Shown here: piece by piece, positions 4,581-8,335 of the stretch | Position numbering within the stretch: the first letter of the stretch is position 1 | Layout of the letters: every line of letters starts with the position of its first letter | Assembly (NCBI RefSeq): GCF_963675165.1 | Contig: NC_087381.1 | Span: forward strand, 310,001 to 374,000 | DNA length: 64,000 bases | Source: Halichondria panicea | Lineage: Eukaryota > Porifera > Demospongiae > Suberitida > Halichondriidae | Reading direction: 5' to 3' | Translations under genes and position numbers: made by a program | Notes under the pieces: generated by a model | What the model was told of the DNA's origin: nothing | Database searches by the model: none | Seen by the model: the letters and a program-made list of their open reading frames with translations, nothing else

Positions 4581-7500
4581 ATGCAATTGTACGTTAAAAC
4601 CTTGACTGGTAAAACTATCATCCTTGAAGTAGAAGCCAGTAATACAATTGAAAATGTCAAGACTAAAATTCAAGACAAAGAAGGTATCCTACCACATTGG
4701 CAGCGTTTGATATTTGCTGGAAGAGATCTTGAGGATGGTAAAACATTGTCTGATTATAACATACAAAAAGAGAGCACACTTCATCTAGTACTTAGAGGAA
4801 TGGAATTGTACGTTAAACCCTTGACTGGTAAAATCATCACTCTTACAGTGAAAGCCAGTGATACAATTAAAAATGTCAAGACCAAAATTCTATACAAAAA
4901 AGGTGTCTCACCATATCATCAGCGTTTGATATTTGCTGGAAGAGAACTTGAGGATGGTCGAACATTGTCTGATTACAAAATTCGTAAGGACAGCACACTA
5001 GAACTTCGGCTCCGCGGAGGAATGCCAATAATTGTTAAAACCTTGACTGATAAAACCATCACTCTTAGAGTGGAAGTCAGTGATACAATTGAAAATGTCA
5101 AGACTAAAATCCAAGACAAAGAAGGTATCCCACCAGATCAGCAGCGTTTGATATTTGCTGGAAAACAACTTGAGGATGATGGTCGAACAGTGTCTGATTA
5201 TAACATACAAGAAGGGAGCACAATTCATCTAGTACTTAGGCCCCGCGGGGGAATGCAATTGAAAGTTAAAACCCTGACTGGTAAAACCATCACCCTTGAA
5301 GTGGAAGCCAGTGACATAATCGAAAATGTCAAGACTAAAATTCAAGACAAAGAAGGTATCCCACCAGATCAGCAGAGTTTGATATTTGCTGGAAGAGAAC
5401 TTGAGGATGGTCGAACATTGTCTGATTACAAAATTCGTAAGGAGAGCATACTAGAACTTGTACTTTGGCGAATGCCAATAATTGTTAAAACCTTGACTGG
5501 TAAAACCATCACCCTTGACGTGGAAGCCAGTGATACAATTGAAAATGTCAAGATCAAAATTCAAGACAAAGAAGGTATCCCACCAGATCAGCAGCGTTTA
5601 ATATTTGCTGGAAAACAACTTGAGGATGGTCGAACATTGTCTGATTATAACATACAAAAAGAGAGCACACTTCATCTAGTACTTAGGCTCCGCAGTGGAA
5701 TGCAAGTGAAACTTAAAACCCTGACTGGTAAAACCACCACCCTTGAAGTGGAAGCCAGTGACATAATCGAAAATGTCAAGACTAAAATTCAAGACAAAGA
5801 AGGTATCCCACCAGATCAGCAGCGTTTGATATTTGCTGGAAGAGAACTTGAGGATGGTCGAACATTGTCTGATTACAAAATTCGTAAGGAGAGCATACTA
5901 GAACTTATACTTTGGCTCCCCGGAGGAATTGACGTGGAAGCCAGTGATACAATTGAAAATGTCAAGACTAAAATTCAAGACAAAGAAGGTATCCCACCAG
6001 ATCGGCAGCGTTTAATATTTGCTGGAAAACAACTTGAGGATGGTCGAACATTGTCTGATTATAGCATACAAAAGGAGAGCACACTTCATCTAGTACTAGA
6101 AATGCAATTGAAGGTTAAAACCCTGACTGGTAAAACGATCACTCTTAGAGTGGATTCCAGTGACACAATCGAAGATGTCAAGACTAAAATTCAAGACAAA
6201 GAAGGTATCCCACCAGATCAGCAGTGTTTGATATTTTCTGGAAAACAACTTGAAGATGGTCGAACATTATCTGAATACAATATACAAACGGAAAGCACAC
6301 TTGATCTAGTACTTGGAATGTATATACATGTATTTGTTAAAAACCTGACTGGTAAAACCATCATCCTTGAAGTTGAAACCAGTGACACAATTGAAAATGT
6401 CAAGACTAAAATTCAAGATAAAGAAGGTATATCATGTGATCAACAGTCACTGCATTTGATATATGCTGGCCATGAACTTGAGGAAGGTCGAACATTGTCT
6501 GATTACAACATTCTAAAAGAGGCTAGTCTTTGTTTAGTATCAAGACTCAGAATAATGGACATCCCTGTTCATCTGCCCAATGGGGAATCTTTGTTTCTTG
6601 ATATTGAACCAACAAGTACAGTAAGAAAATGCAAAGACTTAGTGCAAAGTAAAGTGCCAACAATTTCAGCTGAGCAAATAGACATAGTGATTAATGGAAT
6701 AATACTTTCTGATGAGGATTGTATAGACATAACCCGAAGGCAGACTTTTTACATTGTTCGCAAAAACGGGACTATTCGATTAAACGTCTTTTCTAGAGAT
6801 CAAACCCAATTACTCACAACACTCAATGTTCACCCTGATGAAGTAATGATGTCATTAAAAGCAAGAATATCCGCTGCAGTTACAGACCACCCTCTTCCAA
6901 GTGAGCAGAGACTATTACTGGCTAAAGACCATCCAATTGGCTCCGAGAGTTTTAGGGCTGATAACTTTTGGATTAATGGCAGTCAGCACGCTAACGTTTT
7001 ACTTTTGGATATTCTGAAATCATTTTATGTAAAGAGTTCTACCGGAAAAAATACAGAGGTGAAAATTTCCACTAACTGCCGAATCTACGATCTCAAAATG
7101 GAGATACAGCGAGTAGATGAACAGCACCTCGAGCCGAGTAGACAACAACTGTTATATTGTTGTATTAATGGATGTGAAATATTGGAAAATGAGCAGTTGA
7201 TATCTCGTTTTCCGTGCGGATCAATTTCACTTCACCTTTGTAAGTTGAATATTTAAGTGTATTTATTATACAGTTACTATACATGTGTGTTATACATTCT
7301 ACAGATGAGGATGACTTCGTTAGTCAACTAGATGCTGGCCGTTTATCGAGGGAAAAGAGACAAATTACGTGTACACTGGATAATGCGAGCATCCAAGTTA
7401 CCCCTTTAATGGAGATCACAGGAGAAGAAACAATCTCAATTGGCATAAATACTTACAGCACTTCAAAACCTTCTTTCTCATTTCCACAAGGCTGCTCTCT

Positions 7501-8335
7501 GTACAGAAATGTCTACAAGTTAAAAATGTCAACAAGTGACCAATATTTGCGTGATAGAGCAAGAATACAGTTCAAATTCCAACAACCTTGCAGCGGAAAA
7601 AATTTTCATATCTTGCAAGCATCTTGTACTCCTACGCACTGGGAAGCAAATCTCACTCCTGTGTTCAAATTTTCTCTGATTGGCGCCCAAAACACCCAAC
7701 AACAAGATGCACTAATATCAGCCACATTGAATATATCCAACTGCTACGTTGTTTTAGCAGGTATATATATCGATATACATACCGTAAATACATGCAGCGC
7801 TATATATAATGTATAATAATTTACCTTACAGAAATACCACAACAAGCAGCAGCTCTCATATCAGAGTTTTATGGGACGGTATTTGGGGCAAATCTGTTGG
7901 AAAGAGAGAGCAGCTCAAGTAAGTACAAATTGACAGACTTGTGGATAACAATTATGATTTGTATTAACTTGTGCAGGTTGCAACACTGACTTGCAGGTCA
8001 CTCCGAGTGTAAGAGACGATATAGAAGTGCTAACAGGCATAACCTTAACAGACGAGCAGCTGGACACCGAAATCCAAGATATTATTATGCTAGCTGAATT
8101 TTTTGACGACCCTATGAACTATGTAGAGAAACTAGGCCTTACTAGAGCCGACAGCAATGATGTCAGGCAAAAAAGAATCGATGGAACTCAAGCAGCTATG
8201 TGCCTAGCCCTAACAAAATGGCGTGACTATAATCCAGGTGCAGCTACTTTCAGAGCACTGCTAAAAATATTAATGGAACTCCGAAAACAACATGTGGCTA
8301 AAGACATTTGCGATTTCATTTCAGGCAAATTTTAA
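4581..8335 (+). CDS. polyubiquitin-like protein fused to a C-terminal Death domain
   Basis: Four exons (4581-7239, 7305-7760, 7832-7918, 7977-8335), all joined in phase 1 by GT-AG introns, total 3,561 bases or 1,186 aa. Ubiquitin repeats begin at residues 1, 74, 148, 225, 298, 374, 450 (N-terminally short), 508 and 580. Most keep [18 protein letters not shown] and Lys63, but Arg often replaces Lys48. Few keep the RGG end that deubiquitinases cut: units 2 and 3 do, while the others end LRG, LWR, RSG, PGG, LE or LG. Three diverged ubiquitin-like segments follow (about 659-886), then a beta-rich segment I cannot name (about 887-1066). The last exon holds a Death-domain signature ([17 protein letters not shown], then [20 protein letters not shown]). 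I infer an uncleavable Met1-type ubiquitin chain built into a cytosolic Death-fold adaptor. No signal peptide or membrane segment is seen. Confidence 0.85.
5022..5927 (+). repeat. two tandem copies of a two-ubiquitin unit
   Basis: Ubiquitin units 3 and 5 resemble each other (both start MPIIVKTLT, with GKQLED and YNIQ). Units 4 and 6 resemble each other ([27 protein letters not shown]). The DNA period is about 450 bases (starts at 5022 and 5472). The gene therefore grew by duplicating pairs, not single repeats. Confidence 0.75.

Follow-up and report, generated by a model that had tools for sequence, protein, structure and literature searches.

A predicted gene of the sponge Halichondria panicea joins an array of nine ubiquitin repeats, together with three ubiquitin-like folds, to a divergent ZU5 domain and a C-terminal Death domain in a single reading frame. 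The gene lies at positions 4581-8335 (forward strand) of the window, the 64,000-nucleotide stretch analysed here, which corresponds to positions 310001-374000 of contig C5 in a genome of 131 Mb and 39 contigs. Most junctions of its array have lost the RLRGG|M sequence that canonical polyubiquitin genes keep. We propose, with a confidence a little short of even, that the product would be a hard-wired, mostly protease-resistant ubiquitin scaffold on a Death-fold adaptor, gathering ubiquitin-binding proteins at a Death assembly.

Ubiquitin array, ZU5 and Death domains of the predicted gene

The four exons are predicted to be spliced in one frame into 1,186 codons and a stop, as a preliminary description of this DNA had claimed. 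The claim was borne out by the introns (65, 71 and 58 nt), which are all GT..AG and all phase 1, and by the absence of an internal stop. Without splicing, the open frame around exon 1 spans 895 aa and that around exon 4 spans 125 aa, and exon 2 can be read past its donor to a stop at 7814-7816 inside intron 2. The spliced protein matched the Pfam ubiquitin profile PF00240 at an E value of 4.7e-237.

The repeats were compared with the ubiquitin unit of the same genome, taken from two canonical polyubiquitin genes (L001 and L002). The 11 full units of these genes comprise two protein variants that are one residue apart, with at most 40 nucleotide differences between units. Repeats 1 to 9 of the window gene were identical to this reference at 63, 53, 66, 62, 71, 62, 53, 61 and 56 of 76 residues, respectively, which together with the PF00240 match supports the nine repeats of the preliminary description. 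RLRGG|M was present at all nine internal junctions of the two control genes but at only one of the nine junctions of the window array, or two if RPRGG|M is counted; GG|M was likewise found at two of nine. The array is therefore not a polyubiquitin precursor with RLRGG|M junctions that release its units. Because most junctions have lost RLRGG|M, whereas the canonical genes keep it at 9/9, the array is, as judged from its junctions, mostly uncleavable. The loss was concentrated in the tail: residues 72 to 76 were retained in 23 of 45 cells, compared with 524 of 639 in the body of the repeats (Fisher p 6e-6, a value that is only a guide because related repeats are not independent). The change L73P, which occurs naturally in repeat 3, is described in the accessible text of one study as an engineered change making ubiquitin resistant to deubiquitinase processing (PMC10667490).

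In contrast to the tails, the core was kept. Ile44 was retained in all nine repeats and Leu8 in all eight that reach this position. Lys27, Lys29 and Lys33 were retained in 9/9 repeats and Lys11 in 8/8 reaching it, while Lys48 was found in four and Lys63 in seven of the nine. The changes K48R and H68E are common to repeats 2, 4 and 6 (K48R also occurs in repeat 1), and no synonymous difference separates repeat 4 from repeat 6, which suggests that the array grew by duplication in pairs.

Three further ubiquitin-like folds had been claimed to follow the repeats. Pfam recognised two PF00240 stretches among them, and the alignment with three paralogues agreed with the claim: across some 218 residues, the 228-aa triplet had 38-40% identity to the corresponding part of these paralogues, and it had 31% (60.8 bits) to L039. 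Where the last ubiquitin meets this block, GG is missing in the window gene and in L037, L038 and L042.

The segment encoded by exon 2, called beta-rich in the preliminary description, is a separate domain after the array, which profile comparison identifies as a divergent ZU5. Searched as a single sequence, exon 2 had no Pfam match at E <= 1, and thus none to ZU5 (PF00791). In hhalign, its six-row alignment (A1) matched an alignment of ZU5 domains from the same genome with a probability of 89% and a score of 41.8, whereas 200 column shuffles yielded scores of 19.7 at best, and the alignment in reverse scored 12.6. The ZU5 reference had nine rows, taken from 14 fetched stretches (five near-duplicates were left out) out of 27 matches. 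Window exon 2 alone scored 34.3 (73%), and the two C2 rows alone scored 25.4 (19%). A novel fold was considered for exon 2 and rejected, since the profile comparison favours a divergent ZU5. A sequence search of the Protein Data Bank (PDB) with the alignment of exon 2 returned a single row, a xylanase at E 0.44, and no relative.

The search of the genome with exon 2 gave five matches among seven candidates, namely exon 2 itself and four relatives (E 8e-23, 6e-22, 2e-21 and 0.003). These relatives (C5:5368891, C5:5319301, C17:3496701 and C2:8152524) are each located downstream of a same-strand ubiquitin array. A fifth relative, in L034, was missed by the search and spotted by eye, indicating that the search was not exhaustive. 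No exon 2 relative was confirmed in bacterial or archaeal genome contigs or in viral contigs. A chance join is unlikely, because every exon 2 relative found sits behind another ubiquitin array and because exon 2 matches ZU5 by profile.

No UPA domain was matched by Pfam at E <= 1 in exons 2 and 3, where Pfam also missed ZU5 and exon 3 is only 87 nt long. PIDD and NLRP1 carry HFS at their autoproteolysis site; the last ZU5-like strand has NCY in the window gene, and the paralogues have RCY or GVY there, in an uncertain register. We considered autoproteolysis of the ZU5-like domain but did not adopt it, as none of these is a convincing site. This result also bears on an unlikely alternative, in which the uncleavable N-terminal array is a built-in degron that directs the protein to the proteasome by ubiquitin-fusion degradation and keeps the Death adaptor scarce. 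The protein would then accumulate and signal only when the ubiquitin or proteasome system fails, e.g., under a pathogen block. The uncleavable tails and the retained Lys11, Lys27, Lys29 and Lys33 fit a degron; yeast degrades proteins that carry a noncleavable ubiquitin at their N terminus, and NLRP1 and CARD8, in which ZU5 stands beside a death fold, act by functional degradation. However, one ubiquitin would be enough for this purpose, and the missing UPA match and autoproteolysis site also argue against it.

The C-terminal Death domain of the preliminary description was supported by exon 4 alone, which matched PF00531 with 25.2-25.3 bits (E about 1.7e-5 to 1.8e-5) and so passed the curated cut-off of 22.6. 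Among ten aligned exon 4 sequences, nine matched PF00531 at E <= 0.1, and the window exon was the best (1.7e-5). This alignment (A2) consisted of eight of the 12 loci L017-L028 (four near-identical ones were dropped) together with L039 and L041. When the Death exons linked to arrays were scanned singly, L039 reached 17.9 bits, below the cut-off, and L041 had no match at E <= 1. In the genome-wide PF00531 search, in which 150 of 503 candidates were scored, the window exon was not among the matches listed. The PDB sequence search gave three rows for exon 4 alone, all unrelated, and five rows for its alignment, with the CRADD Death domain (E 1.5) ranked under myoglobins. Structural comparison of the exon 4 model (VIA-align) gave no deciding match. 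Taken as a whole, the architecture described earlier for 4581-8335 is confirmed at the level of sequence (Table 1).

Exon 4 as a query found at least 150 relatives in the genome (150 of 580 candidates scored). Such an abundant exon class would accord with a gene-model artefact, in which exon 4 is part of another gene, while the ubiquitin gene stops within intron 2, where exon 2 remains readable to a stop, or takes an unseen CARD-like exon, the nearest paralogues ending in CARD-like rather than Death exons. This explanation is very improbable, given that the exons lie on the same strand, are separated by introns of 58-71 nt that are all phase 1, and stay in frame to the stop, and that a Death exon also follows an array in L039 and L041.

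Table 1. Features of the predicted gene (window coordinates)
Feature	Position	Strand	Description
Exon 1	4581..7239	+	nine ubiquitin repeats, then three ubiquitin-like folds; residues 1-886 and first base of codon 887
Ubiquitin repeat 1	4581..4799	+	tail ..LVLRG|M
Ubiquitin repeat 2	4800..5021	+	tail ..LRLRGG|M, sole canonical junction
Ubiquitin repeat 3	5022..5252	+	tail ..LRPRGG|M (L73P)
Ubiquitin repeat 4	5253..5471	+	tail ..LVLWR|M
Ubiquitin repeat 5	5472..5699	+	tail ..LRLRSG|M (G75S)
Ubiquitin repeat 6	5700..5927	+	tail ..LWLPGG|I
Ubiquitin repeat 7	5928..6101	+	without residues 1-14 (58 aa); tail ..LVLE|M
Ubiquitin repeat 8	6102..6317	+	tail ..LVLG|M
Ubiquitin repeat 9	6318..6554	+	tail ..SRLRI|M
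Three divergent ubiquitin-like folds	6555..7238	+	residues 659-886; common to paralogues
Exon 2	7305..7760	+	predicted divergent ZU5 domain, 152 aa
Exon 3	7832..7918	+	short linker, 87 nt
Exon 4	7977..8335	+	predicted Death domain and stop codon

Related loci, selection and neighbourhood

The gene may be a member of a family of adaptors in its own genome that combine a ubiquitin or ubiquitin-like array, a divergent ZU5 and a death-fold domain. The survey of this family covered 14 regions around PF00240 matches (L034-L047); the 93 matches in the genome occupy more places. In eight further loci, a ubiquitin or ubiquitin-like array is followed downstream on the same strand by a death-fold exon. 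Five of these (L034, L036, L037, L038 and L042) have ZU5-like and CARD-like exons, and by eye the donor, acceptor and phase of their exon 1/exon 2 junction agree with those of the window gene. The other three (L039, L040 and L041) have a Death exon without a ZU5-like one, and L035 has an array with no death-fold match within the stretch examined. The combination of ZU5-like and Death exons was found only in the window gene among the loci examined. The CARD-like, Death and ZU5-like profiles were partly built from the same loci; the finds of the exon 2 query are independent of them. In L043, one ubiquitin-like match (34.5 bits) is followed about 1.2 kb downstream by a Pfam Death match (31.4 bits).

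Of five CARD-like members compared with CARD for the paralogues L034, L036, L037 and L038, two matched at E <= 1, the best with 13.9 bits (cut-off 23.9). In the comparison of their profile with the PDB, seven of 11 rows were the Apaf-1 CARD (E 0.8-1.1), and the top row was the unrelated DpsA (0.013). We therefore label this domain only CARD-like, because the Pfam cut-off was not reached and the top PDB row is unrelated. Extra tandem copies of the CARD-like exon are present downstream of L037's own (5913-6176, 7559-7807 and 8953-9186). In L040 (3519-3817) and L042 (4106-4412, reverse strand), the match to the last domain is split over two frames; these may be pseudogenes, introns or assembly errors.

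RLRGG|M sites higher up the array were found in L038 (three) and L042 (two), and L037 has one with an extra glycine. Of these four genes, the window gene thus has the most locked array. The reverse-strand array of L038 (2147-4009), with its three RLRGG|M junctions and units carrying changes such as R42H, could release variant ubiquitin.

The GG|M sites left intact in L037, L038 and L042, the occurrence of divergent arrays that end in a Death or a CARD-like domain, and the abundance of Death-exon relatives, which suggests an arms-race setting, are also what might be expected of an integrated decoy. The ubiquitin units would then lure ubiquitin-cleaving or ubiquitin-modifying enzymes of pathogens, and an attack would release or activate the Death or CARD-like part. 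For the window gene this is improbable, as most of its cut sites are gone and the effector is purely hypothetical.

Between the window gene and L037, L038 and L042, the three-fold block had a ratio of nonsynonymous to synonymous substitution rates (dN/dS) of 0.31-0.34, and the ZU5-like exon had one of 0.18-0.22, at dS values of 1.75-3.1, near saturation. Close paralogues gave 0.56-0.66 for the block and 0.32-0.46 for the exon. For the CARD-like exon, dN/dS was 1.05 in the pair L037-L038 and 0.65 in the pair L034-L036. The gene thus shows signs of purifying selection, and these values indicate that its frame looks maintained, far more loosely than that of ubiquitin.

In the neighbourhood of the gene, a near-perfect inverted repeat resembling a foldback element (4063-4479; arms of 58 nt with 97% complementarity and inner arms of 79 nt with 89%) ends about 100 bases upstream of the start codon. 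Genes for arylamine N-acetyltransferase (PF00797) surround the gene at 214-1107, 1198-2031 and 10036-10989, and a broken stretch at about 9170-9415 resembles the same enzyme by eye.

Candidate readers and the proposed scaffold

In mammals, signalling in inflammation and cell death is organised by Met1-linked ubiquitin chains, which the linear ubiquitin chain assembly complex (LUBAC) builds on demand and OTULIN cuts. The profile of the UBAN domain, a reader of such chains (PF16516, CC2-LZ/UBAN), had 29 matches in the H. panicea genome, 26 of them on contig C1. The motif Y-x-x-D-F-x-x-E-R-x-x-R, the core motif of the UBAN domain in NEMO and optineurin, was present in 9/9 of the places read among these matches; eight stretches were fetched, seven of which form alignment A4, and the ninth place was read in L071. 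These NEMO-like sequences are candidates for linear-ubiquitin readers. In L071, a UBAN match (21.2 bits, cut-off 35.3) in a long coiled-coil frame is followed in a later open frame by a C2HC-like finger (17 bits, cut-off 27). This order corresponds to the plan of NEMO, given as UBAN plus zinc finger in the accessible text of PMC10694592. Coiled-coil genes with a NEMO/optineurin-like UBAN core form an apparently expanded cluster at C1:3.1-5.2 Mb (L062-L065 and L068-L071).

In the proposed scaffold, the array, which has for the most part lost the tail required by deubiquitinases and E1 but has kept its core and Ile44, would stay attached. As a permanent scaffold it might bind ubiquitin-binding proteins, for which the UBAN proteins of the same genome are candidates. 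The C-terminal Death domain would nucleate an assembly with partner Death domains, where the bound proteins gather, and the output may be innate immune or cell-death signalling. A hard-wired Met1-like chain on a Death domain had been suggested in the preliminary description. The hard-wiring agrees with the fusion of the array in the gene model and with its mostly uncuttable junctions, but the array is not a clean Met1 chain, which would have GG-Met1 linkages and a proximal Phe4/Gln2/Glu16 face.

Several findings weigh against the scaffold. UBAN binding needs the distal Ile44 face and the proximal face of Phe4, Gln2 and Glu16. Phe4 was retained in one of nine repeats (repeat 9, with Tyr in two others), Gln2 and His68 in four each, the linkers are shorter at several junctions, and repeat 7 is truncated; with Phe4 and Gln2 mostly lost, UBAN may therefore not bind this array. 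All 29 PF16516 matches are below the curated cut-off, and since the profile also weakly matches, below cut-off, E. coli and Synechococcus, the UBAN assignment rests on the motif and not on the score. In searches for the linear-chain machinery, HOIP-UBA had one match, just below its cut-off (21.9 versus 22.4 bits), and the lack of an OTULIN match is uninformative because the profile matched nothing in any genome searched. The PF00531 match of exon 4 falls to 20.4 bits, below the cut-off, within the whole chain. AlphaFold models built without an alignment were helical but weak for exon 4 (mean predicted local distance difference test score [pLDDT] of 53) and not confident for exon 2 (mean pLDDT of 31). 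Finally, dN/dS between the window repeats was 0.28-0.94 (one pair undefined), which could also mean decay.

Such loose ratios would be expected of a relic polyubiquitin gene with a captured death-fold tail, which is partly cut, releases a few variant ubiquitins, has no scaffold role and is perhaps decaying. The canonical tail of repeat 2, the three such sites of L038, the value of 1.05 for the L037-L038 CARD-like pair and the split matches in L040 and L042 point in the same direction. A relic is nevertheless quite unlikely, as the frame runs for 1,186 codons without a stop, the tail loss is concentrated, GG is gone before the three-fold block in all four genes compared, and dN/dS of the ZU5-like exon is low.

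A broader form of the scaffold proposal, which we put forward only tentatively and consider rather doubtful, extends it to the whole family. These adaptors would share a gene-encoded linear ubiquitin scaffold made deubiquitinase resistant by tail changes (including L73P), read by an expanded UBAN family and connected through the ZU5-like domain to an exchangeable output, Death or CARD-like. Even one gene of this kind would mean that evolution is able to hard-wire a ubiquitin signal that other animals attach only posttranslationally, and it would connect the ubiquitin and death-fold systems in another animal lineage. The array would also be a natural test of the minimal ubiquitin surface needed by readers, and the family offers natural variants for comparison, with more or less cleavable arrays and Death or CARD-like ends.

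Comparison with known systems

The earlier statement that no described protein has such an architecture holds in part. No ubiquitin-array/ZU5/Death protein was found among the matches listed for the open-licence PubMed Central literature, a scope that leaves room for one already published, but fusions of TRADD-N with polyubiquitin have been published (PMC8195603). They are the nearest published relative found, in that both are animal proteins in which an adaptor domain of death pathways is joined to polyubiquitin. According to the accessible text of that article, TRADD-N is fused to polyubiquitin, the same clade (DEDD2/TRADD) also has fusions with UPA-ZU5 and FIIND modules, an immune or apoptotic use is predicted, and Amphimedon has 357 TRADD-N proteins, most of them with Death-like domains (PMC8195603). 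The window gene differs in having a Death domain (CARD-like in the paralogues), a divergent ZU5 and a mostly uncleavable N-terminal array. The window protein had no TRADD_N match at E <= 1 in single-sequence Pfam, whereas the published TRADD-N domains were recovered by iterative and HHpred searches (PMC8195603). In another sponge, Dysidea avara, UBQ (ubiquitin) is among the domains in a figure legend on NOD-like receptor (NLR) genes, and NACHT-Zu5 is named (PMC12909245). These NLRs are NACHT proteins, and the accessible part of the article notes no ubiquitin array-ZU5-Death protein.

Like the canonical polyubiquitin genes L001 and L002, the window gene has head-to-tail ubiquitin repeats in a single exon; unlike them, it is divergent rather than near-invariant in protein sequence and has RLRGG|M at 1/9 rather than 9/9 junctions. 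PIDD1, UNC5 and ankyrins are ZU5-UPA-Death proteins and likewise have a ZU5-type domain followed by a Death domain. In the window gene, no UPA was found, the ZU5 is very divergent, and the ubiquitin array replaces the leucine-rich repeat, receptor or ankyrin parts. NLRP1 and CARD8 are FIIND-CARD proteins. Compared with them, the window gene has no UPA found and no clear autoproteolysis motif, and a ubiquitin array stands in place of the sensor; the order of a ZU5-type domain and then a death fold is common to both, and the resemblance is greatest for the CARD-like paralogues.

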